Positions 106 to 23,437 of a stretch of DNA of 64,000 bases are shown here, one piece after another. Within the stretch, counting starts at the first letter, position 1. Each line of letters begins with the position of its first letter. The position numbers and the translations under genes were made by a program. The stretch is from Staphylococcus sp. (GTDB taxonomy: Bacteria > Bacteroidota > Bacteroidia > Bacteroidales > Muribaculaceae). Below the pieces are notes generated by a model. The model made no database searches, was not told the DNA's origin, and saw only the letters and a list, made by a program, of their open reading frames with translations. The stretch is taken from NCBI GenBank assembly GCA_023665865.1, contig JAMPDC010000001.1, positions 1,510,637 to 1,574,636 of the forward strand, read 5' to 3'.

Positions 106-990
106 ATGAAAAATTGTAAGTATCGCGGAGTGGTCGTACCTATGGTGACACCCGTGACCGCAAAACAGGAGCTTGACACCGCCGCTGTCGAGCGTATAAT
201 CGAATTTTTCGCACAAAATGGAGTCGCACCTCTTCTGATGGGCACCACCGGCGAAGGCAACAGCGTTTCGGCCTCCGACGGACTTCTTCTTGTCGAGACC
301 GCAGTCAAGGCTGCCCGCGGACGCATCCTCATCTATGCCGGACTGACCGGAAACTGCTTCTCGGAGCAGCTTAAACAGGCCGAAGCCTATACCAAAGCCG
401 GGGCCGACGTCATCGTGGCCACCCTCCCCTCCTACTATGCACTGACTGAAGAGCAGATGTATGGCTACTACAAGTCGCTGGCCGACAGCATCACCGGCCC
501 GCTGATGCTCTACAACATCCTCGCCACCACCCACATGTCGATCCCCGTCGACGTGATCCGCCGTCTCGCCGACCATCCCAACATCGTTGGCCTCAAAGAT
601 TCCGAGCGCGATCTCGAGCGCATGAAGCAGTGTATCGCCATCTCCCGTGAGCGTGAGGACTTCACTTATTTCTGCGGCTGGGCTGCCCAGTCGGCCTTCT
701 CGCTGTCGATCGGCGGCGACGGCATCGTGCCCAGCACCGGAAACTATGTCCCTGACATGTTCGCAAAACTCTATGACGCAGCCGTGGCCGGCGACATGGA
801 CACCGCCAACCGCCTCCAGGACGAGACAAACGAGATAGCCAAGATCTATCAGGCAGGTCGCACTCTTGGGCAGTCACTGACCGCTCTCAAAGTCATGATG
901 CAGACCAAAGGTCTCTGCGAGCCGTGGATACTCATGCCCCTCACCCGCCTCTCAGCCGATGACGAACAAGCCATAATCGCCAAGCTATGA
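106..990 (+). CDS. DapA/N-acetylneuraminate-lyase family aldolase or dehydratase
   Basis: This 294-residue class I (Schiff-base) TIM-barrel lyase is of normal family length. The substrate-carboxylate loop GTTGE is at residues 46-50, the catalytic Tyr at 136 (LYNIL), and the Schiff-base Lys at 164 (GLKDSE). The GRT sequence that follows YNVP in true dihydrodipicolinate synthases is absent, so lysine biosynthesis is unlikely. The family cleaves or dehydrates 2-keto-3-deoxy sugar acids, often releasing pyruvate. Its stop overlaps the start of the symporter gene by 4 bp, and the rest of the operon encodes four-carbon acid-sugar enzymes. I infer an aldolase acting on a 2-keto-3-deoxy acid. The substrate is not readable from sequence. 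Confidence 0.85.
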   Translation: MKNCKYRGVVVPMVTPVTAKQELDTAAVERIIEFFAQNGVAPLLMGTTGEGNSVSASDGLLLVETAVKAARGRILIYAGLTGNCFSEQLKQAEAYTKAGADVIVATLPSYYALTEEQMYGYYKSLADSITGPLMLYNILATTHMSIPVDVIRRLADHPNIVGLKDSERDLERMKQCIAISREREDFTYFCGWAAQSAFSLSIGGDGIVPSTGNYVPDMFAKLYDAAVAGDMDTANRLQDETNEIAKIYQAGRTLGQSLTALKVMMQTKGLCEPWILMPLTRLSADDEQAIIAKL

Positions 991-2579
991 ACGATATCCA
1001 CTGGATTGACTACCTGATAGTCTTCCTCTCCATAGCCGCGGCTATCGGAGCCGGCCTCTATTTTGCGCGCCGACAGAAGGACACAAGCACATATTTCGCC
1101 GCCGGCGGCCGCATCCCGGCCTGGGCGGTGGGAATGTCAATTTTCGCCACCCTGATCTCAAGCGTGACCTTCCTGGCCTATCCCGGTGCGGCCTATGCCG
1201 ACAACTGGATTCTTCTCGTCCAGGGCCTGATGGTCCCGCTGGTACTCCTCGCCCTCATCGGAGTCATCGTGCCACTTTTCCGCAAGGTGGTGAAGCTCTC
1301 GACCTATGAGTATTTCGAGCGCCGCTTCGGACTTTTCGCCCGAATGTACAGCTCCTTTGCCTTCACTCTGGGCCACTTCTCGAAGGCCGGCACAGTGTTT
1401 TTCCTCGTATCGATGGCGCTGTCCACCTTCCTTGATTTCAACATCTATGCCATAGTCATCATCCTCGGCGTGACCATCATCTTCCTGACCCTCCTCGGTG
1501 GCATGGAAGCGATCGTGTGGATGGACGTCGCTCAAGGCGGCCTCCTCATCGGCGGCGGCCTCATCTGCGTGGCGCTGCTCCTCTTTCTCCCCGAAGGTGG
1601 CCCGGCCGAGGTGCTGCACATCGCCGGCGAGTATAACAAGATCGACGTCGGGCCCTACGACTGGGATCTGACGCAGCTGACATTCATCGTCATGGTGCTC
1701 AACGGTATCTTCTACGCTCTCCAGAAGTATGGCACTGACCAGACCATAGTCCAGCGCTATCTCGCCGCCAAAAACGACACGGATGCCAAGAAAGCCGCCT
1801 ATATCGGCGTGTTGATGAGCGTGCCTATCTGGGCGCTGTTCATGTTTATCGGCACCTGCCTCTTCGCCTACTATCATTCATCCGGCGCCCCGGGTCTCCC
1901 CGACGGGCTAAAGGCCGATGAAGTCTTCCCCTACTTCATCAGCAACGAGCTTCCGGTGGGCATCCGCGGTCTCATCATCGCAGCCCTCGCCGCAGCTGCG
2001 ATCTCGAGCCTCGACACTGACCTCAACTGCCTCTCGGCAATCGCCGTCCAGGACTATTACGTGCGCTTCAAGAAAAACGCGACCGACAAGCAGCAGCTCC
2101 GCTTCGGCCGCCGCATGGTGGTCCTCTCGGGTATCGGCGCGGTCGGCGTGGCCATCCTCTATATCTCGTGGGGTGGTGAGGGTGTCCTCGGCGCACTCTT
2201 CTCGCTCTATGCCATCTTCTCGGCCGGCATCGTCGGCATCTTCCTCCTGGGGCTCTTCAGCCGCAGGGCCAACAAACAGGGCCTCTATGTCGGCATCGCA
2301 GCCGCAGTCCTCTTCACCGCCTATGCCGTCCTCACCTCGACCAAGGTCGATATCCACGGCACCGGCGTCAAGGAGACACTCCTCGATCTCGGCGACTGGA
2401 ACTTCACCCACCACAAATACATGCTGGGCGTCTACAGCCACCTCATCGTGCTCGTGGTCGGCTATCTTGCCAGCTACTTCTTCGCCGCACCGCTGGCAGC
2501 CAAGGAGCTGACAATCTTCGGCTATCTCGAAGAGCGCCGCAAAGCCAAAGACAATCAACTCGAAGTAGAATCAATCTGA
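987..2579 (+). CDS. Sodium:solute symporter (SSS family)
   Basis: A 530-residue polytopic inner-membrane protein starting MNDIHWIDYLIVFLSIAAAI, with about 13-14 hydrophobic segments typical of the SSS family (Na+-coupled uptake of sugars, sialic acid and organic acids). The early segment TSTYFAAGGRIPAWAVGMS and the SLDTDLNCLSAIAVQD stretch around residues 339-354 fit the family. The ATG overlaps the preceding stop by 4 bp, so translation is probably coupled. It is the only transporter in the operon and most likely imports the operon's substrate; specificity is inferred from context only. Confidence 0.9.
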   Translation: MNDIHWIDYLIVFLSIAAAIGAGLYFARRQKDTSTYFAAGGRIPAWAVGMSIFATLISSVTFLAYPGAAYADNWILLVQGLMVPLVLLALIGVIVPLFRKVVKLSTYEYFERRFGLFARMYSSFAFTLGHFSKAGTVFFLVSMALSTFLDFNIYAIVIILGVTIIFLTLLGGMEAIVWMDVAQGGLLIGGGLICVALLLFLPEGGPAEVLHIAGEYNKIDVGPYDWDLTQLTFIVMVLNGIFYALQKYGTDQTIVQRYLAAKNDTDAKKAAYIGVLMSVPIWALFMFIGTCLFAYYHSSGAPGLPDGLKADEVFPYFISNELPVGIRGLIIAALAAAAISSLDTDLNCLSAIAVQDYYVRFKKNATDKQQLRFGRRMVVLSGIGAVGVAILYISWGGEGVLGALFSLYAIFSAGIVGIFLLGLFSRRANKQGLYVGIAAAVLFTAYAVLTSTKVDIHGTGVKETLLDLGDWNFTHHKYMLGVYSHLIVLVVGYLASYFFAAPLAAKELTIFGYLEERRKAKDNQLEVESI

Positions 2580-2592
2580 TATAGTAACTCAA

Positions 2593-3738
2593 ATGAAACC
2601 CATAACTCTTTTGCAGCCGCAGAAAATCGTATTCGGTTCGGGCTGCATCCAGACTTTCGTCGAAGACTATCTGAAGCTTGGTCACAAACGCCTGTTCGTC
2701 CTGACGGCTCCTCCCATCGTCCCCCTCATCGAGCCGGCTCTCGCAGAGCTCAAGGAGAAGGGCGTGGCCATTGAGGTGTTCCAGAACATTCTCGCCGAGC
2801 CGACACTCAATGAATTCAACTCCATCCTCAAGCTCGCGCGCGACTTCGGCGCCGACAGCGTGGTCGGTGTAGGCGGAGGCTCAGTGCTCGACGTCGCCAA
2901 ACTCGTCGCAGCCTTCATCAACAGCGATCAGGAAGCAGCCGACTGCTTCGGCACAGGTTTCATCAACAAGAAAGGTGTATGGCTCGCCTGTCTCCCCACC
3001 ACCGCCGGCACCGGCAGCGAGGTCTCGCCCAACGCTATCCTCCTCGATGAGCGTGACAAGCTCAAGAAGGGTATCGTCAGCCCCTATCTCCTTGCCGACG
3101 CAGCATACGTCGACCCCAAACTCACCATGACAGTCCCCGCGAAGGTCACCGCCGACACCGGCATGGATGCCCTCACTCACTGCATCGAGGCCTACACCAA
3201 CAAGTTTGCCCATCCTGCGGCTGACATCTATGCCCTCCAGGGCATCCGCCTCATCGCCGCCAATCTCCTCCGCGCAGTCAAGGACGGCTCCGACGTCGAG
3301 GCACGCGAGGCACTCGCTCTCGGCTCGCTCTACGGCGGTCTGGTGCTCGGCCCGGTCAACACCGCTGCCGTCCACGCACTCAGCTATCCCCTCGGTGGTG
3401 AATTCCACATCCCCCACGGACTTTCCAACGCCATCCTTCTCCCGTCGGTCATGAAGTTTAACCGTCCGGCCAATCTCCGCAAATATGCCGAGGTAGCGAT
3501 AGCCTGCGGCGCCCCCGCCGGCAAGGATGACGACGAGACCGCCCAGAACGGTGTCGACTTCATCTGCGAGCTCTCCAAGGCTGTCGGCATCCCCCAGAAA
3601 CTCACCGAACTCAACATCCCCCAGAGCGCCGTCGACCGCATGGCCAAGGCCGCGATGGAAGTGCAGCGCCTGCTCAAAAACAATCCCCGCGAGGTCTCCG
3701 AACAGGACGCCAAAGATATCTACAACTCACTCTATTGA
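2593..3738 (+). CDS. Iron-containing (group III) alcohol dehydrogenase
   Basis: This 381-residue NAD(P)-dependent oxidoreductase has full family length. The dinucleotide motif GVGGGSVLDVAK is at about 92-103. The four metal ligands of the FucO type are present: Asp192 and His196 in DTGMDALTHCIEAY, then His261 (HALSYPLGG) and His275 (HIPHGLSN). The family interconverts aldehydes and alcohols, for example lactaldehyde/propanediol. Thirteen bases separate it from the symporter and three from the PdxA-like gene, so it is operonic. In this setting it could reduce the aldehyde released by the upstream aldolase, which is inference. Confidence 0.9.
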   Translation: MKPITLLQPQKIVFGSGCIQTFVEDYLKLGHKRLFVLTAPPIVPLIEPALAELKEKGVAIEVFQNILAEPTLNEFNSILKLARDFGADSVVGVGGGSVLDVAKLVAAFINSDQEAADCFGTGFINKKGVWLACLPTTAGTGSEVSPNAILLDERDKLKKGIVSPYLLADAAYVDPKLTMTVPAKVTADTGMDALTHCIEAYTNKFAHPAADIYALQGIRLIAANLLRAVKDGSDVEAREALALGSLYGGLVLGPVNTAAVHALSYPLGGEFHIPHGLSNAILLPSVMKFNRPANLRKYAEVAIACGAPAGKDDDETAQNGVDFICELSKAVGIPQKLTELNIPQSAVDRMAKAAMEVQRLLKNNPREVSEQDAKDIYNSLY

Positions 3739-3741
3739 ATC

Positions 3742-4779
3742 ATGAAACCGATTTTAGCACTCACCATGGGTGATCCCGCCGGCATCGGCCCCGAGATCAC
3801 CGTCCGCGCGCTCAGCCACCCGGAGACCTACGAGAAATGCCGCCCCATCGTCACCGGCGATGCCGCCGTGATGCAGGAGGCCGTAAAGCTTCTCGGCTTC
3901 GACTTCAAGATCAACGCCGTCACCGACGTGAAGGACGCTAAGTTTGAGTTCGGCACCATCGACGTCTACGATCTCAAGTGTGTCGACATGTCGACCTTCC
4001 GCTTCGGCGAAGTCCAGGCCCAGTGTGGCAACGCTGCTTTCGTCAGCATCCGCAAGGCCATAGATCTCGCGCTCGCCAATGAGGTAGACGGCACCGTCAC
4101 CGCTCCCCTCAACAAGGAGGCGCTCAATCTCGCTGGCCATCATTTCGACGGCCACACGGAGATCTATGCCACCTTCACCAACACCAAGAAATATGCCATG
4201 ATGCTCGCCGACGAGAACATCCGCGTCATCCACGTCTCGACCCATGTGCCCCTGCGCAAGGCGTGTGACCTCGTCAAGAAGGATCGCATCATCGAGGTGA
4301 CCGAGCTCATCGCCGACGCCTGCAAGCAGTTTGGCATCGAGAATCCCCTCATCGGCATCGCCGGCCTCAATCCCCACAGCAGCGAGAACGGCATGTTTGG
4401 CTTCGAGGAGGCCGAGGAGATCATCCCCGCCATCGAGGAGCTCCGCGCCCGCGGCTTCAACGTCGACGGCCCCGTGCCCCCCGACTCAATCTTCGCCAAA
4501 GCGAAGTGCGGTAAATATGACGGCTGCGTGGCGATGTATCACGACCAGGGCCACATCCCCCTGAAGGTCTGCGCCTTCAACTGGAACAAGGAGACAGGCA
4601 AGATGGAGAGCGCAAACGGTGTCAACATCACCCTCGGACTCCCCATCATCCGCGTCAGCGTCGACCACGGCACAGCCTTCGACGTTGCCGGCAAGGGAAT
4701 AGCAAGCGACGACGCCATGGTGCTCAGCATCGACTATGCCACCCGCATGGCAAAATACCGCCTCGGCGTCAAGGACTGA
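3742..4779 (+). CDS. pdxA2: PdxA-family 4-phospho-acid dehydrogenase (PdxA2-like)
   Basis: This 345-residue protein has the PdxA fold: start MKPILALTMGDPAGIGPEI, metal-binding histidines at 168 (STHVPL), 212 (NPHSSENG) and 267 (MYHDQGH), and a C-terminal VSVDHGTAFDVAGKG. PdxA oxidises and decarboxylates 4-phosphohydroxy-threonine in vitamin B6 synthesis. PdxA2 paralogues adjacent to DUF1537 kinases instead convert 4-phospho-D-threonate or -erythronate to DHAP plus CO2. The DUF1537 kinase directly downstream (5-bp gap) argues strongly for the PdxA2 role. Biosynthetic PdxA cannot be fully excluded because no second copy is visible here. Confidence 0.88.
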   Translation: MKPILALTMGDPAGIGPEITVRALSHPETYEKCRPIVTGDAAVMQEAVKLLGFDFKINAVTDVKDAKFEFGTIDVYDLKCVDMSTFRFGEVQAQCGNAAFVSIRKAIDLALANEVDGTVTAPLNKEALNLAGHHFDGHTEIYATFTNTKKYAMMLADENIRVIHVSTHVPLRKACDLVKKDRIIEVTELIADACKQFGIENPLIGIAGLNPHSSENGMFGFEEAEEIIPAIEELRARGFNVDGPVPPDSIFAKAKCGKYDGCVAMYHDQGHIPLKVCAFNWNKETGKMESANGVNITLGLPIIRVSVDHGTAFDVAGKGIASDDAMVLSIDYATRMAKYRLGVKD

Positions 4780-4784
4780 CAGCG

Positions 4785-5861
4785 ATGATAGCAGTTATCG
4801 CCGACGATATCACCGGCGCGGCTGAGATGGCGGGCATAGCCCACCGTCTCGGGCTGCGCGTGAGCCTCACGATGCACCCCGATGCCCCCGGGGGTGACTG
4901 CGATGTGCTCGTCGTTGCCACCGACACCCGCTCGATGAGCGAGGAGGTGGCCCGCGGCGAGAGTGCAGCCGTGGCGCGTGCGCTCGATGCGAACCCCGCC
5001 GTCAGCCACATCTTCAAGAAGACCGACTCAGCTCTGCGCGGACATGTGGTGGCCGAGCTGGAGGCTATTCTGGCCGAGACGACCTACAGCCGCGTGCTCT
5101 ATCTCCCCGCCAACCCCTCGAAGGGGCGCACGATCTCCGGCGGCGTCTACTACATCTCCGGCACTCCGCTCAGCGAGACCGATTTCTCCTTCGATCCGGA
5201 GTTTCCGGCCCTCACGTCGGCCCTTGGCGAGCGCTTCGCCGGCTGCCGCGATAAGGGGATCGACTATGCCGACGCCGAAACCGCAGGCGACATCAGCCGC
5301 CTTGTCGAGGCCACGCCTGCCGACACTCTGCTCGCCGGCGCTGCCGACCTCTTCACTGCCTTTTTAGGAAAATATGCCCCCGCCACCACTTCCACCACGC
5401 CCTCAGGCTTCAGCCTGAGCACCGATGACAGCATAGTGGTCTGCGGAAGCACCCAGAGCAAGGCCATCGACTGCGGTATCACGGCCTATCCGATGCCTAC
5501 GACGCTCTACGACGGGCTCACGACGCCCGACGGCTGGATCGCCGAGCTGTCCGACGCCTATCGCCGCGAGGGTGCGCTGATCATCGGCATGAGTGACCGT
5601 CACCGCACGGGCAAGGAGAGTGCCGTCTATCTCCGCGAGACGATGGCTACAGTCGTCGCAGCCCTCTGCGGCGGTGTCCGCCCCCCGCGCGAACTCGTCA
5701 TCGAGGGTGGTGCCACAGCCTTTGCCATACTCCGGCGCCTCGGATGGGACACCTTTGTCATCACCGATGAGATCGCTCCGGGAGTGATCCGCATGAGGAG
5801 CTCTTCGGGGACGGGGGTCACCATGAAGCCGGGGAGCTATCCCTGGGGAGGGCTGTTTTAG
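4785..5861 (+). CDS. Four-carbon acid sugar kinase (DUF1537 family)
   Basis: This 358-residue cytoplasmic kinase has the N-terminal sugar-binding signature IADDITGAAEMAG at residues 5-17. The C-terminal nucleotide-binding region contains EGGATAFAILRRLGW, a PGVIRM turn and a terminal KPGSYPWGG. DUF1537 enzymes phosphorylate D-threonate, D-erythronate and related acids at O4, feeding PdxA2. It is somewhat shorter than the usual 400-430 residues, but both ends look intact. It is the last gene of the operon; a palindromic repeat begins about 12 bases after the stop and may act as the transcript end. Confidence 0.88.
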   Translation: MIAVIADDITGAAEMAGIAHRLGLRVSLTMHPDAPGGDCDVLVVATDTRSMSEEVARGESAAVARALDANPAVSHIFKKTDSALRGHVVAELEAILAETTYSRVLYLPANPSKGRTISGGVYYISGTPLSETDFSFDPEFPALTSALGERFAGCRDKGIDYADAETAGDISRLVEATPADTLLAGAADLFTAFLGKYAPATTSTTPSGFSLSTDDSIVVCGSTQSKAIDCGITAYPMPTTLYDGLTTPDGWIAELSDAYRREGALIIGMSDRHRTGKESAVYLRETMATVVAALCGGVRPPRELVIEGGATAFAILRRLGWDTFVITDEIAPGVIRMRSSSGTGVTMKPGSYPWGGLF

Positions 5862-5872
5862 CTCAATCAACT

Positions 5873-6008
5873 TATAGCCTCGGAGAGGCGTTTCGTGGAA
5901 GCATCACTTGTGTCACGAGACGCCTCTCCGAGGCTATATATATGGGTGGGGAGATGTCCCCCGGACCTTGTCCGGGGTTTCTGCACGATGTCTCTGCCTC
6001 CGGCAGAG
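5873..6008. repeat. Composite palindromic repeat, copy A (right part only)
   Basis: The sequence begins with the inner inverted repeat TAGCCTCGGAGAGGCG (5876-5891), whose complement CGCCTCTCCGAGGCTA is at 5921-5936. It continues with the mini-hairpin CCCCGGACCTTGTCCGGGG (5959-5977) and CTGCCTCCGGCAG (5994-6006). Copies at 6471-6667 and 11272-11468 also carry a matching left arm, which this copy lacks. It sits just downstream of the kinase stop and could terminate the acid-sugar operon. Confidence 0.9.
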
Positions 6009-6183: not shown

Positions 6184-6290
6184 AAAAAAAGGGTAAGCTT
6201 ACTACATCGCACCGCTACAACCCGATACCGTTGCTTCGATCAAGACCTGGCGGAGTTCTCGGGGAGCTGGTCGTGTAGGACTTACCCGGC
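6184..6290 (-). ncRNA. ffs: Signal recognition particle RNA (small bacterial type)
   Basis: Read on the minus strand, GGGTAAG (6287-6281) pairs with CTTACCC (6197-6191), and an inner CTACA/TGTAG pairing follows. The domain IV asymmetric loop is visible as CCAGG ... GAAGCA (about 6250-6232), the conserved Ffh-binding site. Seven Ts (6190-6184) directly follow the closing stem as terminator. A perfect promoter lies upstream at 6293-6323. The RNA is about 100 nt, the usual short form. The apical loop is not the standard GGAA tetraloop. It works with Ffh and FtsY to target membrane proteins. The call rests on the CAGG/AGCA motifs plus closing stem. Confidence 0.82.
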
Positions 6291-6292
6291 TG

Positions 6293-6323
6293 CAAAGGTA
6301 CTACTTTTTTCCGAATCCACAAA
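6293..6323 (-). promoter_or_regulatory. Housekeeping promoter of the SRP RNA gene
   Basis: On the minus strand, TTTG (6323-6320) is followed after 19 nt by TACCTTTG (6300-6293). This is the Bacteroidetes -33/-7 consensus, with initiation expected about 6-10 nt further on, at the first bases of the closing stem. Confidence 0.85.
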
Positions 6324-7274: not shown

Positions 7275-8519
7275 CTAAAGATAAACAGTGAAGAACAGGG
7301 CTTTATTTCTAAAATTTCCATTTTGGGTATGGAAAACGTCATCATTAAAATATCCATTATCCTCTCCATTCCACCCCCAATTAAACCAACTAAGCATACT
7401 TTCAGAAATTACATTCTCAACCTCAGTCCATTCCAAAGAGCTTATGGGCCTAACATATTCTATCATTTGCTTCTTCATATATTTAAACCCATCTGCAATC
7501 CACATGTGTCCCATATCATTTTCGTTAAAGCCACCAACTATGATTATACCATCTTTCAGATTATAACGTATACATTGCTTGTAATAGCTCTGGGTCGCAG
7601 TGAGTTTAAAACCAAATGACAATGCTGCTTGTCTGATTCCATTTTCGGTAGTTCCTGTTCCATACTCAAAAAATGAATTCTTATATTCACTCCCAGCACG
7701 TTTTCCTATTTCTCTAAGCAAAGAGGCAATCGCATCGTGCGGAGAATTCGGTTGGCAACAATAATCCGAGGTACCAATAGTATGCCGCTTCATGTTAGGC
7801 CAATCCAAATCAATAATTTCATTATTACGATACGTCAATTTTATCGATTTTGGATACTCAAAATAACTCATAGCCATTCCCAATGCAGTATTACTACAGC
7901 CTGTTAGTCCATTGTCACAATATTTTCCATATATTCCACTCTGATCCCACTCCACATCAACTCGTGGTGAGACAGATACTGAATCCAAGATAATTTCTTC
8001 TCTTTTAACTTCCTGGATTTCAAATGGCGAATTTGGATTTGGATTTGAAGGATTTATCGGCAGCCCAGCCGAATACGCGACAGCCATATCTATGAACATG
8101 GTGAGTCCGGGATTAGTACATTCCTCTGCGGTTGTATAGTGGCCGGCCTCCGTTACTGCAAGGAGTGATTCCCCCGAACGGTTTGCACAGATCACTGCAT
8201 AGCCTGCATTATCCTTGTAGTTAAGGACATAAAGGAGTGTATCGGCATCGCCGGAGCGGGAAGTGCCGGAAGTGACATAACTGATACCGGAAGAAAGGTC
8301 CAACTCGCGGGCAACCGAAGCTCTTGATGATTTTGAGCCATCATCGAGCAATGAGCGTGCATCGTTGGCAATCTGAATAGCCTCATCAAGCGAGCGCTTT
8401 TCAGTCATTGTAGTTACAGTTTTCAGATCAAGCTTTGACGACTCCGGCTCTTCGACTGCATCCGAGCTACATGAGGCTACAAGAAGCCCGACAGCAAGAA
8501 ATGGGATAAGAGTTTTCAT
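7275..8519 (-). CDS. C10 family (streptopain-like) cysteine protease lipoprotein
   Basis: This 414-residue protein has a lipoprotein signal ending LLVASC (Cys17). An N-terminal propeptide (about 35-180) resembles the Spi/prodomain of C10 zymogens. The catalytic domain holds nucleophile Cys208 in LTGCSNTALGMAMSYF, His338 in GHMWIADGF, and the aromatic WFNWGWNGEDNGYF (378-391), matching streptopain/Bfp motifs. All catalytic elements are present, so it is probably an active, surface- or periplasm-anchored protease. It is transcribed with the DUF3244-like gene upstream (26-bp gap). Base composition is much more AT-rich than the flanks, suggesting horizontal acquisition. Confidence 0.85.
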   Translation of the reverse strand: MKTLIPFLAVGLLVASCSSDAVEEPESSKLDLKTVTTMTEKRSLDEAIQIANDARSLLDDGSKSSRASVARELDLSSGISYVTSGTSRSGDADTLLYVLNYKDNAGYAVICANRSGESLLAVTEAGHYTTAEECTNPGLTMFIDMAVAYSAGLPINPSNPNPNSPFEIQEVKREEIILDSVSVSPRVDVEWDQSGIYGKYCDNGLTGCSNTALGMAMSYFEYPKSIKLTYRNNEIIDLDWPNMKRHTIGTSDYCCQPNSPHDAIASLLREIGKRAGSEYKNSFFEYGTGTTENGIRQAALSFGFKLTATQSYYKQCIRYNLKDGIIIVGGFNENDMGHMWIADGFKYMKKQMIEYVRPISSLEWTEVENVISESMLSWFNWGWNGEDNGYFNDDVFHTQNGNFRNKALFFTVYL

Positions 8520-11563: not shown

Positions 11564-12415
11564 CTATTTGTTGAGATTGTAGACGGTGCGGCGGACGTAG
11601 GGTTTCAGGCCGGGCACCTGACGGGCAATGGCGTCGGCGGCGATGCGCGAGACGATGATGCCGCCAAGGACGTTGAGGTGGGTATTGTCGATGCGTCCTT
11701 TGGGAGCAAACTCATAGACCCCGACGGGCATCCACATGAAGAGCTCGCGTGATGCGTCGCGTCCGAGCCCCTGGACGAGCTCATGGGTGAGGGTGTTCAT
11801 GTCGATGAAAGTGACGCCCATCTCCTCGGCCACGTTGCGGGGCGCGATGCGATAGTCACCATGGGTGTCGACAAGAGTATCCCCCTCGGCGGGATAGTTC
11901 TGGAGTCCGTCTTTCCATGTCTTCTGGCGGTCGTCGGTCTCGGCGGCGGCAATGCCCCGTGCGGGGAAGTTGCGGCGGACGATGGAGTTCATGAGGATAG
12001 GGGTGGCGCCTTTCTCACGCGCTTCAGTGACGAATTTGCGCAGATTGTCGTCGAAAGTCGAGCCGGGGATGGTGTAGCGGTCAGGACTCTTGGCCTTCTC
12101 GTCGTTGTGACCGAACTGGATGATGACATAGTCGCCCGGACGTATGAGCGAGCGCACCTTGTCCCAGCGGCCTTCGTCGATGAAGCTCTTCGAGCTGCGG
12201 CCATTGACGGCATGGTTGTCGACCTTTACAGGGCCTTCGAGGTAGATCGGGAGCATCTGGGCCCAGCCACGCTCCTGGTTCTCCTTGTCGAGAGGTTTGT
12301 TGGCCATCGTTGAGTCACCGATGGTGAAGATTGTGATTGTGTCCGAGGGCACCTGAGCGGCCATTGTCATCGCCGGGAGTGCCAGTGCTACTAACAGGGA
12401 TTTTAAAGATTTCAT
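11564..12415 (-). CDS. Rhamnogalacturonan acetylesterase (SGNH/GDSL hydrolase)
   Basis: This 283-residue protein has a signal peptide (cleavage about MAA-20). SGNH block I is IFTIGDSTMANKP with nucleophile Ser35, block III is IIQFGHNDE near residue 104, and the Asp243/His246 dyad is in DNTHLNVLGG. This is the RhgT/CE12-like arrangement, which removes acetyl groups from rhamnogalacturonan. It is a single-gene unit on the minus strand, divergent from the MntA-HepT pair, and functionally part of the pectin cluster to the right (GH105, GH106). The family call is strong; exact substrate is inferred. Confidence 0.88.
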   Translation of the reverse strand: MKSLKSLLVALALPAMTMAAQVPSDTITIFTIGDSTMANKPLDKENQERGWAQMLPIYLEGPVKVDNHAVNGRSSKSFIDEGRWDKVRSLIRPGDYVIIQFGHNDEKAKSPDRYTIPGSTFDDNLRKFVTEAREKGATPILMNSIVRRNFPARGIAAAETDDRQKTWKDGLQNYPAEGDTLVDTHGDYRIAPRNVAEEMGVTFIDMNTLTHELVQGLGRDASRELFMWMPVGVYEFAPKGRIDNTHLNVLGGIIVSRIAADAIARQVPGLKPYVRRTVYNLNK

Positions 12416-12437
12416 GATAAGGATTGGTTGGTTGATG

Positions 12438-12445
12438 CAAAATTA
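12438..12445 (-). promoter_or_regulatory. -7 box of the acetylesterase gene
   Basis: On the minus strand TAATTTTG (12445-12438) lies 23 nt before the ATG. An imperfect TTTC (12469-12466) is the -33 partner at 20 nt. It overlaps the divergent mntA promoter. Confidence 0.6.
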
Positions 12446-12454
12446 CGCATAATA

Positions 12455-12486
12455 ATTGTTATATCGAAAGATAATTTCTATTTTTG
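12455..12486 (+). promoter_or_regulatory. Promoter of the mntA-hepT operon
   Basis: ATTG (12455-12458), 20 nt, TATTTTTG (12479-12486). Initiation near 12493 decides the start codon: the TTG at 12484 lies inside the box, so translation must begin at ATG 12514. Confidence 0.7.
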
Positions 12487-12513
12487 CATGCAACAAATCT
12501 TAGCCTATTCACA

Positions 12514-12825
12514 ATGACAAAGTCCACGCTATCAGACATAATACCCAAACTACGGGCATATTTCTCCACTCAGCCGGTCACTCGCGCATGGCTGTTTGGC
12601 TCTTACTCCCGCGGCGAGGAGTCGGAGAACAGTGACGTGGATATTCTGCTTGAATTTGACGAGAAAGCCCATGTCTCGCTTTTCACGATGGGAAACATGT
12701 ATTCGTCGCTCACCGAGCTGCTTCATCGCGCAGTGGATATCGTTGAGAAAGATACTCTCATGAATTTCGCCATAGCATCTGTCGAAAAAGATAAAATACT
12801 GATTTATGAGAGAAATAATCCGTGA
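12514..12825 (+). CDS. mntA: MntA-type minimal nucleotidyltransferase antitoxin
   Basis: This 103-residue protein has the nucleotidyltransferase signature G29-S30, ten residues, then D41-V-D43 (GSYSRGEESENSDVD), i.e. the GSX10DXD motif of MNT antitoxins. In characterised MntA-HepT systems MntA AMPylates a tyrosine next to the HEPN active site of HepT and so neutralises it. The gene overlaps hepT by 20 bp, typical of this system. The start is chosen from the promoter, whose -7 box covers the earlier TTG. Confidence 0.88.
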   Translation: MTKSTLSDIIPKLRAYFSTQPVTRAWLFGSYSRGEESENSDVDILLEFDEKAHVSLFTMGNMYSSLTELLHRAVDIVEKDTLMNFAIASVEKDKILIYERNNP

Positions 12826-13153
12826 TCGTGAACGAGTAAGACATATGATTGAAGCCATTGACCAGATCCAAGATGCCCGTCGGCGTTTTTCAGAGCATGA
12901 TCTTGTCAATGATCCGGTTATTTTCTATGGACTCGTCAAATGGGTGGAGGTGATTGGCGAAGCTGCATATAAAATTACAGAGAACACACGATGCGATTGG
13001 CCCGACATCCCCTGGAAATCAATAATCGGCATGCGACATGTGCTGGTCCATGGCTACTACCAGATAAAGCCCGAGAGACTTATGGCTACAATCAGTGAAG
13101 AATTGCCTGAATTGCGGGAAATATTGGCAAAACTATATGCCCGATTAAGTTGA
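12806..13153 (+). CDS. hepT: HepT-type HEPN toxin (DUF86)
   Basis: This 115-residue all-helical HEPN protein contains the RX4HXY motif as Arg77-His82-Tyr84 in RHVLVHGYY, the ribonuclease site plus the tyrosine modified by MntA. It overlaps the antitoxin gene by 20 bp. HepT cleaves RNA (tRNA in the best-studied case) when not modified. The pair sits between the acetylesterase and the glycosidase operon and looks like an insertion in the pectin locus. All motif residues are intact. Confidence 0.88.
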   Translation: MREIIRDRERVRHMIEAIDQIQDARRRFSEHDLVNDPVIFYGLVKWVEVIGEAAYKITENTRCDWPDIPWKSIIGMRHVLVHGYYQIKPERLMATISEELPELREILAKLYARLS

Positions 13154-13202
13154 TATTTTCAAATTGGGCAGAGAGAGGATACTTCAATCTCCCTCCCCTA
13201 CA

Positions 13203-13234
13203 CTTGATTGCTTTAAGGAAAAGTGCTAACTTTG
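13203..13234 (+). promoter_or_regulatory. Promoter of the pectin glycosidase operon
   Basis: CTTG (13203-13206), 20 nt, TAACTTTG (13227-13234). Expected initiation near 13241 excludes the GTG at 13223 as start codon and supports ATG 13259. Confidence 0.75.
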
Positions 13235-13258
13235 CAGAAAATCCTTAAATCAAGACTG

Positions 13259-15364
13259 ATGACAATCAAACACCTGCTTTTTGCCGCAGTGCTCGCTATG
13301 CCCGCGCAGCTCTTTGTCTCCTGCGGAAGTGCCTCGGCCATTGACCGTCAGGCACTCGTCGGGCGCAACAATCCGCACATCACAACCATCGATACCCTCG
13401 CGTCGCTCTCGGTCGGCAACGGCGAGTTTGCCGTGACCGTCGACGTCACCGGTTTGCAGACCTTCCCCGAAGTCTATAGCAACGGTGTGCCCTTGGGCAC
13501 CCAGAGCCAATGGGGATGGCACAGCTTCACGAACCCCGACAGTCTCCGCTTTGAGGAAACGCTCAAGGATTTCGACTTCGGCCGCGGACGGCAGGAACCC
13601 TACTCCACAGAGTTTAAGGAAGCGGGGCGCAACAAGGACGCGTCCGTGTGGTATCGCGTCAATCCCCATCGCCTCCATCTCGGCGCACTCGGTTTTGCCG
13701 GACTGACACCCGACCGCATCAGCGACATCGACCAGACACTCGACATGTGGAACGGCGAGATCCGCTCAGATTTCAAGGTTGACGGAGAGGCTGTCAGCGT
13801 CAAGACTTACGTGCATCCCGACCGCGACATGATGGCCGCGTCGATCAGTTCCAAAAACCATCTTCCCGTAGCGCTCCGTCTCCCTTATCCCACAGGCGGA
13901 CATTGTGACGACGCCTGCGACTGGGATGCTGACTCGCTGCATCAGACAGAGATCGTCAGCCTCTCGGAGAGCAGCGCCACTCTGCGCCACAGTCTCGACT
14001 CGACGGTCTACTACATCAATCTGTCATGGACAGGGGCTGAGTCGCCCGTCATGAGCGGACGCAACACTGCGACCATCACCCCGACGGCCGACGACTGGAC
14101 CATCACTGCAACCTATACCCTCGAACCCTCATCATCGCCCGCACCGACCGTGGCAGAGACCCGCGAGGCTACCGGCAAATACTGGAATGACTTCTGGCAG
14201 AAGGGTGGCGCGGTCGATTTCAGCCGCTGCACCGATCCGCGTGCCGCTGAGCTCGAACGCCGGGTGGTGCTCTCGCAATATCTGCTCGCCATCCAGTGTG
14301 CAGGCTCTACCCCGCCTCAGGAGACAGGATTGACCTACAATTCATGGTTCGGGAAATTCCACCTGGAAATGATCTGGTGGCACCAGGCCCAGTTTGCCCT
14401 CTGGGGTCACGAGGATCTGCTCAACCGCACCCTCCCCTGGTATGAATCGGCCGCAGGTGTGGCACGCGACATCGCCTCACGCCAGGGATTCAAAGGTCTG
14501 CGCTGGATGAAGATGACCGATCCCTCGGCGCTCGAAGCACCCTCCAAGGTCGGATCTTTCCTCATCTGGCAACAGCCACATCTGATCTATCTCGCAGAAC
14601 TGGCTTTCCGTGCCAACTCCGACTCCACCATCATTGACCGCTACTATGACCTCGTGCAGGAGACAGCCGAATTCATGGCCGATTTCGCCGACAAGGATTC
14701 GCTCGGACGCTATACACTCCGCGGCATCATCCCCGCTCAGGAGACCCTCCGCGCAGCTGAGACTGTCAACCCGCCCTTCGAGCTGTCATACTGGCACTTC
14801 GGGCTCAACACCGCCCAGAAATGGCGTGAGCGCAAGGGACAGGAGCGTGTCAAGGAATGGGACAAGATCATAGCCTCGCTCTCGCCTCTCGCAGCCAAAG
14901 ACAGTCTCTATCTCGCTGCCGAGACCGCGCCCGAGACCTACAGTGACATCCGTCTGACCTCCGACCACATGGCTGTCCTCGCCGCTGTCGGTATTCTTCC
15001 GGCATCGCCGTTGGTGAAAAACGACATCATGGACAATACCTTTGACTGGGTCTACGACAACTGGAACTGGGACAAGACCTGGGGTTGGGATTATCCCACC
15101 ACCGCTATGAACGCCGTCCGCCTCGGCCATCCCGAGAAGGCCATCAACGCCCTGCTCATGGACAAGCGCACCAACACCTATCTTCCCAACGGCCACAACT
15201 ACCAGGACAAGCGCCTGCGCTGCTATCTGCCGGGCAACGGCGGCCTGCTGACGGCTGTCGCGCTGATGTGTGCCGGCTGGGACGGTTGCGAAACTGAAAA
15301 TCCCGGTTTCCCGAAGGATGGCACCTGGGATGTGCGTTGGGAAGGCATCAAACCTATGCCATAA
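13259..15364 (+). CDS. Six-hairpin glycosidase-like lipoprotein (GH65-like)
   Basis: A 701-residue protein with signal MTIKHLLFAAVLAMPAQLF and lipobox-like FVSC. The N-terminal half is beta-rich. The C-terminal half has the (alpha/alpha)6 character of clan-L-like glycosidases, with IWWHQAQFALWGHEDLLNR near residue 376, FLIWQQPHLIYLAELAFR near 438, and WGWDYPTTAMNAVRLG near 610. I cannot assign a CAZy family with certainty; GH65-like is the nearest. It is the first gene of a four-gene operon ending in GH106 and GH105 enzymes, so a role in removing a rhamnogalacturonan side-chain sugar is likely. It is probably outer-membrane or periplasm anchored. Confidence 0.65.
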   Translation: MTIKHLLFAAVLAMPAQLFVSCGSASAIDRQALVGRNNPHITTIDTLASLSVGNGEFAVTVDVTGLQTFPEVYSNGVPLGTQSQWGWHSFTNPDSLRFEETLKDFDFGRGRQEPYSTEFKEAGRNKDASVWYRVNPHRLHLGALGFAGLTPDRISDIDQTLDMWNGEIRSDFKVDGEAVSVKTYVHPDRDMMAASISSKNHLPVALRLPYPTGGHCDDACDWDADSLHQTEIVSLSESSATLRHSLDSTVYYINLSWTGAESPVMSGRNTATITPTADDWTITATYTLEPSSSPAPTVAETREATGKYWNDFWQKGGAVDFSRCTDPRAAELERRVVLSQYLLAIQCAGSTPPQETGLTYNSWFGKFHLEMIWWHQAQFALWGHEDLLNRTLPWYESAAGVARDIASRQGFKGLRWMKMTDPSALEAPSKVGSFLIWQQPHLIYLAELAFRANSDSTIIDRYYDLVQETAEFMADFADKDSLGRYTLRGIIPAQETLRAAETVNPPFELSYWHFGLNTAQKWRERKGQERVKEWDKIIASLSPLAAKDSLYLAAETAPETYSDIRLTSDHMAVLAAVGILPASPLVKNDIMDNTFDWVYDNWNWDKTWGWDYPTTAMNAVRLGHPEKAINALLMDKRTNTYLPNGHNYQDKRLRCYLPGNGGLLTAVALMCAGWDGCETENPGFPKDGTWDVRWEGIKPMP

Positions 15365-15382
15365 CCTCATTCTGACCGACAG

Positions 15383-18300
15383 ATGAAAGTCAAACCGCTC
15401 GTCGCCGCGATCCTCATCACTGCCACCTCACTTCTGACCTATGCCGGAAGCGGGGTGCGCCCGCATCACTACAGTCCGTCCGGGACCTCGGCGGTCGCCG
15501 TCGATGGCACCTCCCGCTTCAACCGTGCGCTCTATGGCGCCCACACAGGCTTCCACATGGAGTGTTCCGACATGACTGAGTTCGGGATCTATCTTCCACA
15601 CATGGGAGGCAATCTGAGACTGACACTTCCGGAGGGGAAATGCACGGCAATCTATACCCCCGGCCGCATGGACTACAAGCAGGGAGGTGTCGAGGTCGAG
15701 GCTCAGGTGATGCGCAGCGAAGACATGGCGCTCTGGCGGCTGACAAATACGTCCGGGAAGAGCGTGACGATACCGGTGCGCTTCGGAGGTGTAGCCGACA
15801 AGGGATTCTCGCGCAACGGTGACCTCGGCGTCGACGACCCGACATGTTTCGACCTGAAGCCGGAATATTGCGAGGGAAACATCTATGAGGTCGACAAAGA
15901 TGTCGTCACCATCGAATATGGCCGTAAGCAACGGTCAACGCTGACCCTCGTCATCCCCGCCGACAACCATACGATCACCGATCTCCCGACCTACGAGGGG
16001 ATGATCACACTCAAGCCCGGCGAAAGCAAATATATCGCGCTCTTTCCGGCCGGATCAAACGCCGCAGCAGTCTCCGTCGAAGCTCTCATGGAGCGGGCGG
16101 AGAAGGAGCGGGCGGAGATAGCCTCGTCGGTCAGCTTCTCCACTCCAGCCGGATGGCTCAACCCGCTTGGAGGAGCATTGGCGATAGCGGCCGACGGAAT
16201 CTGGAGCGGACAGGCGTGGCTCCACGGATCAATCGGCTGGCGCACACCTCACCTCGGTTGGCGCGGAGCCTATACGGGTGATGCAATAGGCCGTCATGAC
16301 CGCGCACTGACCCATTTCCTGACCTACGCCGACAATCAGATCACTGACATCCCTCCCGTCTACCCACATCCGCGCCAGGACTCTACACTCAACCTCGCCC
16401 GGGCCGAGAAGCGCTGGGGCACACCGATGTATAGCGACGGTTACATCTGCCGGCGACCGGGAAAGAAGAATGAGATGTCGCACTACGACATGAACCTCGT
16501 CTATGTCGATGCTATGCTGCGCCATTTCCGCCACACGGCCGACACTGCCGCCATGCGCAGGCTATTTCCCGTGATCAAACGTCATCTTGCCTGGGAAAAA
16601 CGCAATTTCGACCCTGACGGCGACCATCTCTATGACGCATATTGCTGCATCTGGGCGAGCGACGCCCTCTACTACAGCGGAGGTGCCGTCACCCACTCAT
16701 CAGCCTACAATCTTTTTGCCAACAGACTCACCGCCCGCATAGCCGAGCTGCTCGGTGAAGATCCCACACCCTATCTCGCCGAGGCCGACGGCATCGCCGC
16801 CGCCATCGACAGCATACTTTGGATGGCCGACAGAGGCCACTGGGCTGAGTATCGTGACGCGGGCGGTCACCGGCGTCTCCATCCCGGCGCCGCTCTGTGG
16901 ACCATATATCATGCCATTGACTCGGAAATAGCCGATGAGTTCAAAGCATACGCAGCCACCTGCTATGTCGACCGTGAGATACCCCACATTCCGGTTGAAG
17001 GCGAAGGTGTGGAGGAAGGACTGTTCACGCTGTCGACCACAAACTGGAAACCATATTCGTGGAGTATCAACAATGTGGCCATCGCCGAGGTCATGCACAC
17101 GGCCCTTGCCTATTGGCAGGCCGGACGCGCGGACGAAGCCTACCGCCTTATGGAGAGCGTGGCCGCCGATAATATGTATCTCGGAGCCTCTCCGCTCAAT
17201 TTCGGTCAGATCAGCCACTATGACGCGGCCCGTGGAGAGTGTTACCGCGACTTCGCAGACCCGATCGGAGTGTGGAGCCGAGCGTTGACTGAGGGGCTCT
17301 TCGGAGTGCGTCCCGACATGCTCGCGCAGCAACCTACCGTAAGGCTCGTGCCCGGTTTCCCCTCATGGTGGACAGAGGCGGAGATCTCGCTGCCAGACAT
17401 AAGCTACACCTTCAAGCGCGAAGGCTCAAGACTGCACTATACGATCGACAACCGTTACAGCTCTGACCCGAATCTCGAACTGACCGTGGCTGCCAAAGGC
17501 GTGGCTTCGGTGAAAGTCAACGGACAGGAAGCGAAGTGGCATCCTGCCGGGAACTCAATCGGCACACCACGCATCGTCGTTGACGCCGGCAACGCCAGAC
17601 ATCTCGACATCGAGATCGTGGAGAGCGATAAGTTCATCCCGTCGTCCACAGGCCGTGTCCGTATGGAGGGTCCGGTGAAATTCAGCGAGATGACCGACGG
17701 CACTCTCGCCTATTGGGAAGTTGAAACCGGCGAATTGCCAAAGTCCGCCATACCCTCGCCCGGATTTGACGACGTCAACAGTGCCCTTTGCTCGCCGGTA
17801 GACCTCAGCGGATACTATAACGCAGCCGTGACCGACATCTTCCGCAACGAGTATCTCTCCCCCCGTCCTGCCGTCACCACCCTGCAGTTGCCCAAACAGG
17901 GCATAGGAGAGTGGTGTCATCCACAGCTCACAGCCGACATCGACGACTCGGGGCTGCGCAGACATCTCGCCTCGACAGGCGGACTCCTCGAGACCGAAGC
18001 GGGAGTAAACTTCAAGCTCCCGGCCGAGGGACGCAACATAGCCTTCACATCTCTCTGGGACAACTATCCCGACAGTATCCGCATAGGGCTTCAAGGCCAC
18101 GCCTCACATCTCTATCTGCTTATGGCAGGATCGACCAACCACATGCAGTGGGGAGTGGACAACGGTGTGGTCCGTGTGCGCTACGCCGACGGGACAGAAG
18201 AAACGACACCTCTCGTCAACCCTCACAACTGGGCGCCGATAGAACTCGACTTTTACCACGACGACCATGCCTTTGCCATGGCTCCTGGCACCCTGCCCCC

Positions 18301-18517
18301 CTACAGAGTACACCTTGAGAGCGGACACGCGAGCCGGCGGCTCGGCGACGAGCTTGGAATCACCGGAGCAGGTGACCGCTACATCAAGGGTGGAGCCGGA
18401 ATCATGCTCGACATACCGGCGGATCCCGAACGCGAACTGTCGTCACTCACCATTGAAACACTCTCGGGCGATGTGGTCATCGGACTGATGGGTCTCAGCC
18501 TCCAACGCCCGCTATAG
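15383..18517 (+). CDS. DUF4450-type large secreted protein, glycosidase-like
   Basis: A 1044-residue protein with signal peptide MKVKPLVAAILITATSLLTYA. The N-terminus (RFNRALYGAHTGFHMECSDM near 45-64) matches my memory of DUF4450. The middle part (about 270-660) has (alpha/alpha)6-type features, e.g. HYDMNLVYVDAMLRHFRHT and LYDAYCCIWASDALYYSGG. The C-terminal 300 residues look like beta-sandwich carbohydrate-binding modules. Activity is unknown. It lies 18 bp after the preceding glycosidase and 27 bp before GH106, so it very probably acts on the same pectic glycan. Confidence 0.7.
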   Translation: MKVKPLVAAILITATSLLTYAGSGVRPHHYSPSGTSAVAVDGTSRFNRALYGAHTGFHMECSDMTEFGIYLPHMGGNLRLTLPEGKCTAIYTPGRMDYKQGGVEVEAQVMRSEDMALWRLTNTSGKSVTIPVRFGGVADKGFSRNGDLGVDDPTCFDLKPEYCEGNIYEVDKDVVTIEYGRKQRSTLTLVIPADNHTITDLPTYEGMITLKPGESKYIALFPAGSNAAAVSVEALMERAEKERAEIASSVSFSTPAGWLNPLGGALAIAADGIWSGQAWLHGSIGWRTPHLGWRGAYTGDAIGRHDRALTHFLTYADNQITDIPPVYPHPRQDSTLNLARAEKRWGTPMYSDGYICRRPGKKNEMSHYDMNLVYVDAMLRHFRHTADTAAMRRLFPVIKRHLAWEKRNFDPDGDHLYDAYCCIWASDALYYSGGAVTHSSAYNLFANRLTARIAELLGEDPTPYLAEADGIAAAIDSILWMADRGHWAEYRDAGGHRRLHPGAALWTIYHAIDSEIADEFKAYAATCYVDREIPHIPVEGEGVEEGLFTLSTTNWKPYSWSINNVAIAEVMHTALAYWQAGRADEAYRLMESVAADNMYLGASPLNFGQISHYDAARGECYRDFADPIGVWSRALTEGLFGVRPDMLAQQPTVRLVPGFPSWWTEAEISLPDISYTFKREGSRLHYTIDNRYSSDPNLELTVAAKGVASVKVNGQEAKWHPAGNSIGTPRIVVDAGNARHLDIEIVESDKFIPSSTGRVRMEGPVKFSEMTDGTLAYWEVETGELPKSAIPSPGFDDVNSALCSPVDLSGYYNAAVTDIFRNEYLSPRPAVTTLQLPKQGIGEWCHPQLTADIDDSGLRRHLASTGGLLETEAGVNFKLPAEGRNIAFTSLWDNYPDSIRIGLQGHASHLYLLMAGSTNHMQWGVDNGVVRVRYADGTEETTPLVNPHNWAPIELDFYHDDHAFAMAPGTLPPYRVHLESGHASRRLGDELGITGAGDRYIKGGAGIMLDIPADPERELSSLTIETLSGDVVIGLMGLSLQRPL

Positions 18518-18544
18518 AACCAACAACAATCATCACTACCTCCA

Positions 18545-21337: not shown

Positions 21338-21358
21338 TCAATCACACCAATCAGCAAT

Positions 21359-23365: not shown

Positions 23366-23437
<72 letters not shown>

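Follow-up and report, generated by a model that had tools for sequence, protein, structure and literature searches.

A five-gene operon of Bacteroidota proposed to convert DHA of rhamnogalacturonan II into pyruvate and dihydroxyacetone phosphate via D-threonate

At the start of a 64-kb window of a Muribaculaceae genome (64,000 nucleotides of contig JAMPDC010000001.1, assembly GCA_023665865.1; "the window" hereafter means this whole stretch), there is a plus-strand operon of five genes for an aldolase of the DHDPS/NAL superfamily, a Na+/solute symporter of the SSF family, an iron-dependent alcohol dehydrogenase (Fe-ADH), a PdxA-like dehydrogenase and a DUF1537 kinase (Table 1). Judging from sequence comparisons, we propose with a probability of about 0.7 that its function is the catabolism of 3-deoxy-D-lyxo-hept-2-ulosaric acid (DHA) from rhamnogalacturonan II (RG-II). 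The same interpretation was given in a preliminary description of this DNA and is now supported by evidence of gene neighbourhood and genome co-occurrence and by Fischer bookkeeping. Quite likely, it would be the first recognised DHA catabolism, a widespread Bacteroidota cassette taking a C7 diacid to pyruvate and dihydroxyacetone phosphate (DHAP) via D-threonate, whose symporter and aldolase may take 3-deoxy-D-manno-oct-2-ulosonic acid (Kdo) as well. That the five named families form one tight operon agrees with the coordinates of the open reading frames (ORFs) and the Pfam scan: the aldolase and symporter ORFs overlap by 4 bp, the later gaps are 13, 3 and 5 bp, and all five proteins score above their family cut-offs.

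For the substrate, the order of the steps, the direction of the Fe-ADH and the energetics, we propose the following. Successive action of an arabinofuranosidase (GH142) and a DHA hydrolase (GH143) on side chain D of RG-II would release DHA, and the symporter, which resembles the sialic-acid symporter SiaT, would carry the free acid across the inner membrane. DHA has a carboxyl at C1, a keto group at C2, a deoxy C3, the D-lyxo configuration at C4-C6 and a carboxyl at C7; the aldolase would cleave it between C3 and C4 via a Schiff base to give pyruvate and D-threo-tetruronate (2,3-dihydroxy-4-oxobutanoate), the aldehyde of which would be reduced to D-threonate by the Fe-ADH. The DUF1537 kinase would convert this into D-threonate 4-phosphate, which the PdxA2-like enzyme would oxidise and decarboxylate to DHAP and CO2. 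On balance, DHA would yield pyruvate, DHAP and CO2 at the expense of one ATP, and the NAD(P)H used by the Fe-ADH could be recovered at the PdxA step. The earlier stereochemical claim, that DHA of D-lyxo configuration gives D-threonate when cut and reduced, was borne out by Fischer bookkeeping. Within RG-II, we narrow the choice to DHA because a C7 3-deoxy-2-ketoaldarate would feed both a pyruvate aldolase and a kinase of C4 acids.

The latter half of this route resembles a pathway ascribed to Zhang et al. (2016), in which a DUF1537 kinase (DtnK) and PdxA2 reportedly take D-threonate to DHAP. Both enzyme families are shared, the operon kinase has D-threonate kinase as its best NCBIfam model and the dehydrogenase is nearer to PdxA2 than to PdxA1, but here D-threonate would arise within the cell from a C7 acid via an aldolase and a reductase, and the operon kinase is short and scores far under the D-threonate kinase cut-off. 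The former half recalls the glucarate/galactarate route of the aldolase GarL, the reductase GarR and the kinase GarK. In both, pyruvate is cut off and a semialdehyde acid is reduced before phosphorylation, whereas the operon has a DHDPS/NAL-type aldolase, an Fe-ADH, a DUF1537 kinase and an added PdxA2 step, and its substrate would be C7 instead of C6. Sialic acid catabolism is alike in that SiaT is the nearest solved symporter and that the aldolase and NanA belong to one superfamily, but the partners in the operon are a C4-acid kinase and a dehydrogenase, and the aldolase is far under the nanA cut-off. The RG-II depolymerisation of Bacteroides thetaiotaomicron (BT_1020, GH143/GH142) would supply the substrate; that work concerns cutting of the polymer, and no DHA catabolic step was found in the available parts of it. 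In the accessible parts of two papers (PMC12540250, PMC7954711), Zhang et al. (2016) is cited for four-carbon acid sugars.

RG-II is described as common in the human diet in the part available of PMC12282258. RG-II-cutting enzymes have been described, and searches of the open-access literature, several of them directed at SiaT or DUF1537, yielded no described fate of the released DHA, a gap which the cassette would fill. Nor did they yield a DHA catabolic pathway, although subscription journals lie mostly outside that literature and absence from print is therefore weakly supported. The component families are known, and within what these searches covered their combination and the substrate would be new. 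If the proposal is true, the operon would mark those bacteria which consume RG-II completely, would provide DHA-specific enzymes for RG-II analysis and would assign a role to a branch of DapA-like aldolases and DUF1537 kinases that has no name yet.

The gene set is conserved far beyond the window. When GTDB genomes were scanned with the kinase as query, 156 relatives were obtained, 80 of which were kept for comparison of loci. Contig ends do not limit 64 of these 80; by tblastn (E 1e-15 anywhere in the locus, so that paralogues are possible), all five genes were present in 54 of the 64 and in 58 of the whole 80. A stricter test, which accepts only ORFs no farther than 8 kb from the kinase, finds them in 40 of the 64. 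The five-gene association is beyond chance. It recurs across Bacteroidota, under record titles including Muribaculaceae, Prevotella, Phocaeicola, Spirosoma, Echinicola, Larkinella, Niastella, Pedobacter and Melioribacter. The gene order of the window (aldolase, symporter, Fe-ADH, PdxA, kinase) is found in Muribaculaceae, most Prevotella loci, Echinicola and Anditalea; the order Fe-ADH, aldolase, PdxA, kinase, symporter is found in Spirosoma, Larkinella, Pedobacter, Niastella and also the Bacteroidales genomes G260 and G203. In three loci (L053, L067, L068), several kb part the aldolase-symporter pair from the Fe-ADH-PdxA-kinase trio, and such a split suggests two modules, one presumably for uptake and cleavage and the other for the C4 acid. 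Class-wide, the kinase was found in 2 of 257 genomes, including the window's own.

Genes near the operon link it to RG-II in part of these loci. According to the available parts of the sources, GH143 was founded on the bimodular BT_1020, in which the DHA-hydrolase site is a five-bladed beta-propeller and the other site a beta-L-arabinofuranosidase (PMC6811678), and DHA is named as an RG-II component or as the GH143 target (PMC6811678, PMC7939467, PMC12282258, PMC6353982). The GH143-type propeller corresponds here to Pfam PF24067 ("BT_1020-like"). We take the arabinofuranosidase half to be family GH142. By record titles, the 80 loci were split into 55 of Bacteroidales and 25 outside them; among these records, one is titled only Bacteroidetes (L103), one is titled Sedimentisphaerales and lacks the full set (L102), and one titled Paenibacillus is the same-genus genome G184 (L040). 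In Anditalea (L090), the second gene ahead of the aldolase is similar to the N-terminal half of BT_1020 (5mqr, E 9e-236, query residues 23-611), and another gene, 5 kb past the kinase, to its C-terminal half (E 6.7e-215); this locus also has genes for GH78, GH95, a GH88-family protein and an alpha/beta-hydrolase esterase. Relatives not belonging to Bacteroidales have homologues of both BT_1020 halves close to the operon: a GH143 homologue lies within 10 kb in 11 of the 25 loci (rough chance figure 6e-17, assuming two random copies in 5 Mb) and GH143 or GH142 in 12. Echinicola pacifica DSM 19836 (L099) and Spirosoma endophyticum (L101) are named species with GH143 in the operon locus. At least one of four markers (GH143, GH142, the esterase or a BNR_2 sialidase-like gene) was found in 21 of the 25, the last two being presumed RG-II functions. 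The esterase may be called "BT1017-like" by description only, from alpha/beta-hydrolase Pfam matches and from its partners as given in the accessible part of PMC7939467.

At the genome level, the link is close. PF24067 was found in 48 of 50 and 43 of 45 kinase-bearing genomes in two lists sharing four genomes, hence in 87 of 91 (L042 was left out as the same assembly as L041), so that the operon does not lie mostly in organisms without pectin genes, an outcome which the preliminary description had named as one against its reading. Among 198 genomes of the family, the kinase is present in 6 and PF24067 in 9, and all 6 are inside the 9. In the order, 12 of 393 genomes, which span eight families, have the kinase and 24 have PF24067, 20 of them strongly (E < 1e-80), and all 12 are inside the 20. 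As a control, the broader pectin marker GH106 was found in 46 of the 198 family genomes including all 9 GH143 carriers, and among these GH106-positive Muribaculaceae the kinase occurs in 6 of 9 with GH143 and 0 of 37 without it. Fisher p-values are 1e-9 for the family, 5e-18 for the order (in a table without the four weak PF24067 matches G205, G211, G390 and G485, E 1.6e-6 to 5.3e-4, all kinase-negative) and 9e-6 for the GH106 control, though all of them overstate independence, as relatives share ancestry. Moreover, in a comparison of 28 genomes, an orthologue of the aldolase (48-90% identity) was detected in 5 of 5 operon genomes, in none of 11 kinase-negative genomes with GH143 (two with a 30-32% match) and in 0 of 12 outside the GH143-positive set, three of which (G218, G225, G255) are classed so as not being among the PF24067 matches listed for the order.

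In the window's own genome, PF24067 matches a 1111-codon frame 1.2 Mb from the operon. It lies in a large RG-II-type locus, which also matches GH142, two GH78 (one fused to BNR_2), esterase, apiosidase, GH95, GH2, DUF5703, GH106 and GH141. Release of DHA should therefore be within the capacity of this organism, and the operon is a plausible sink for the freed acid.

The aldolase, of pyruvate-type class I, belongs to the DHDPS/NAL superfamily by its PF00701 match and its kept catalytic residues. G46, T47, G49, E50, Y136 and K164 are invariant in all 61 aligned rows, including the window, and T48 is kept in 60. We take the GTTGE motif, the Tyr and the Schiff-base Lys (K164) to be the catalytic residues. 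It scores below the cut-offs of all 7 NCBIfam models that it matches, DapA, NanA and KdgD among them. Assignment as DapA was rejected by score (165 bits vs 206.15) and by Thr141, which is Thr in 61/61 rows at a position aligned to an Arg of the DHDPS chain 3noe, presumably R138, which binds the second carboxylate in DapA. NanA (sialic-acid lyase; 96.7 vs 382), KdgD (77.2 vs 373.95) and archaeal 2-keto-3-deoxygluconate (KDG) aldolase (104.6 vs 390) were rejected likewise. After the Schiff-base lysine, Glu167 is found in 61 rows and Arg168 in 58, and these two may be the residues that bind the distal carboxylate of the substrate.

The best PDB match of the symporter is 5nv9, SiaT of Proteus mirabilis (E 1.2e-77). 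In SiaT, Ser60, Thr63 and Arg135 are described to hold the carboxylate of N-acetylneuraminic acid (PMC5931594, available part). All 63 aligned rows of the operon symporters keep Ser and Thr at the Ser60 and Thr63 positions; in contrast to SiaT, 49 have Lys at the position of Arg135 and 14 have other residues. Lys247, at the position of SiaT Gln250, is Lys in all 63, and such an additional basic group would suit a diacid.

With regard to the Fe-ADH, the closest PDB chains are 1,3-propanediol oxidoreductase, alcohol dehydrogenase 2, methanol dehydrogenase and lactaldehyde reductase, and D192, H196, H261 and H275, presumably the metal ligands, are kept in at least 65 of 66 rows. The PdxA-like dehydrogenase passes the general pdxA model TIGR00557 (348.2 bits vs cut-off 290.35) and matches 4jqp best (295.5 bits); it scores 289.4 bits to 2hi1 ("dehydrogenase 2") and 277.6 to 6e85 ("D-threonate 4-phosphate dehydrogenase") against 189.7 to 1r8k ("dehydrogenase 1"); it is thus nearer to PdxA2 than to PdxA1 chains. 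A role in vitamin B6 synthesis is unlikely because the genome carries a second PdxA elsewhere, which scores 218 bits on the D-threonate 4-phosphate dehydrogenase model against 328.8 for the operon copy. The kinase belongs to the DUF1537 family by PF07005 (E 6.8e-35, 121.3 bits vs cut-off 25) and PF17042 (33.1 bits vs 28.3, only positions 89-161 of 168 covered). Its best NCBIfam model is D-threonate kinase (NF047819), in a match limited to residues 2-152, and an alignment of 51 kinase sequences has 35 invariant columns. In same-genus loci (L037, L039, L040), the kinase diverges far faster than its four neighbours (64-65% vs 89-95% identity).

Several points weigh against the DHA proposal, besides the shared ancestry mentioned above. 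The scores of two enzymes stay under the specific cut-offs, 328.8 vs 583 bits on NF002891 for the PdxA-like dehydrogenase and 103.4 vs 450 bits on NF047819 for the kinase. PF24067 is missing in 4 of the 91 kinase-bearing genomes (G606, G626, G658, G663), and three of the 87 matches are weak or partial (G640, G650, G661); a match indicates homology to the BT_1020 propeller, which need not mean DHA hydrolysis in each genome. Conversely, GH143 carriers without the operon kinase amount to 8 of the 20 strong ones in the order and 3 of the 9 in the family. The gene set is also incomplete in some Prevotella loci within the examined stretch: L059, L065 and L079 lack the Fe-ADH, and L063, L072, L076 and L082 consist of Fe-ADH, PdxA and kinase without aldolase and symporter. 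The neighbourhood search with RG-II loci, which the preliminary description had suggested, was positive outside Bacteroidales (GH143, 11/25) and negative in the Bacteroidales, the window's own kind, where none of the four markers lies within 10 kb in any of the 55 loci; the operon-RG-II link is there by genome only. Two further Bacteroidales loci outside the 55 (L032, L033) have markers including GH143 near the operon.

Moreover, GH143 marks RG-II degraders generally, and co-occurrence alone cannot separate DHA from other RG-II sugars, since the genes for any of them would correlate. One could therefore think of aceric acid or some other acid of RG-II, or of a C7 deoxy-aldarate sharing the C5-C6 configuration, yet by established chemistry aceric acid is not a 3-deoxy-2-keto acid, and an aldolase of this superfamily should release no pyruvate from it. 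A C7 3-deoxy-2-ketoaldarate would provide the kinase and PdxA with a C4 acid, and among the RG-II sugars DHA is the one of this type; we give such other acids the slimmest chance of all. Kdo of RG-II side chain C comes closer, as its C4-C6 configuration is identical to that of DHA, and use of both acids is possible. The symporter and aldolase might then serve mainly Kdo, giving pyruvate and D-arabinose, with a separate role for the other three genes, and BNR_2 sialidase-like genes, which may encode Kdo hydrolases, are found in 12 of the 25 non-Bacteroidales loci at no more than 10 kb from the operon. For D-arabinose, however, a tetronate kinase and a PdxA2-type enzyme would both be needless, yet these two enzymes occur together in nearly all loci, and a separate aldolase-SSF pair in three GH143-positive genomes (L129, L130, L132) could serve Kdo. 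We regard a mainly Kdo-directed operon as improbable, albeit the least so of the alternatives.

It can also be argued that the operon is a general one for tetronates (threonate or erythronate), fed for example by plant ascorbate breakdown, to which the aldolase and transporter are loosely attached; L-threonate does derive from ascorbate according to the part available of PMC12540250. In such an operon a pyruvate aldolase would be superfluous, yet the aldolase orthologues track the kinase, and the tie to GH143, including the 37 GH106-positive Muribaculaceae in which both GH143 and the kinase are absent, would be unexpected. The chance of this explanation appears very small, lying between those of the two others. 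DHA as the substrate is thus the reading that we prefer.

The operon looks like its own transcription unit because a terminator-like hairpin (L002:15466-15500) parts the aldolase gene from a cluster upstream, beyond the window, of SusC-looking, SusD-looking and two lipoprotein-like genes, named by eye without a family scan. On account of this hairpin we also reject the SusC/SusD-looking genes as operon members; among the six same-genus stretches L021-L026, a SusC match is found only in L025, beyond the kinase end. TAACTTTG ends about 114 bp 5' of the aldolase start codon, with 10 matches in 17 kb vs 4.25 expected, which is weak alone. We take it to fit the Bacteroidetes -7 consensus TAnnTTTG. 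Directly 3' of the kinase gene, an inverted repeat is a possible transcript end, though the terminator scan, which requires a T-run, did not call it.

Table 1. Features of the window discussed in the text.
Feature	Position	Strand	Match or remark
DHDPS/NAL-superfamily aldolase, proposed DHA aldolase	106..990	+	PF00701 (DHDPS), E 2.7e-54
SSF Na+/solute symporter, proposed DHA importer	987..2579	+	PF00474
Fe-dependent alcohol dehydrogenase, proposed C4 aldehyde acid reductase giving D-threonate	2593..3738	+	PF00465, PF25137
PdxA2-like dehydrogenase, proposed to convert D-threonate 4-phosphate into DHAP + CO2	3742..4779	+	PF04166
Short-form DUF1537 kinase (358 aa), proposed as D-threonate 4-kinase	4785..5861	+	PF07005 (SBD_N), partial PF17042 (NBD_C)
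25-nt inverted repeat, arms 5873-5897 / 5914-5938	5873..5938	.	arms 96% complementary, 16 nt between
GDSL esterase	11564-12415		window pectin group
DUF4450 protein	15383-18517		window pectin group
GH106	18545-21337		window pectin group
GH88-family	21359-22504		window pectin group

Pectin enzymes had been said to lie nearby, and a GDSL esterase, a DUF4450 protein, GH106 and a GH88-family protein are indeed encoded at 11564-22504, in a group distinct from the large RG-II-type locus sited elsewhere in the genome. A 701-aa protein without Pfam match (13259-15361) lies between the esterase and the other three. In that RG-II-type context of the own genome, a GH78 rhamnosidase is fused to a BNR_2 sialidase-like domain (L122:2937-6839, C1 about 303-307 kb), which is a candidate for removing Rha-Kdo (rhamnose-Kdo, side chain C) from RG-II.

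In four genomes (G264, G216, G260 and G304; L129-L132), we found a second DapA-like aldolase, 30-32% identical to that of the window. It adjoins another SSF symporter in L129, L130 and L132, with a GH28 match also in L130, and lies about 10 kb from a GH143 match in G304; it is a candidate enzyme for Kdo or another pectin ulosonate. In L053, L063, L065, L067 and L082, a PfkB-type sugar kinase adjoins the DUF1537 kinase on the opposite strand. The one in L053 (11055-12113; cluster c10, 12 loci), scanned in that locus only, has best matches of the KDG-kinase kind. In Prevotella sp. tf2-5 (L051:264-5132), the genes directly 5' of the aldolase encode a split transketolase, an FGGY kinase resembling GlpK and an isomerase with a single NCBIfam match, to sulfoquinovose isomerase, far under the cut-off. 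This layout presumably resembles a transketolase route for apiose, another RG-II sugar; downstream in the same locus there are matches to rhamnulokinase and rhamnulose-1-phosphate aldolase. Finally, shortly after the operon in the window, there are a Bacteroidales small signal recognition particle (SRP) RNA (6187-6294, minus strand) and, on the opposite strand to the operon, a C10-family peptidase with a Spi-type inhibitor domain (7275-8519), and a tRNA is found at 23366-23437 on the minus strand.

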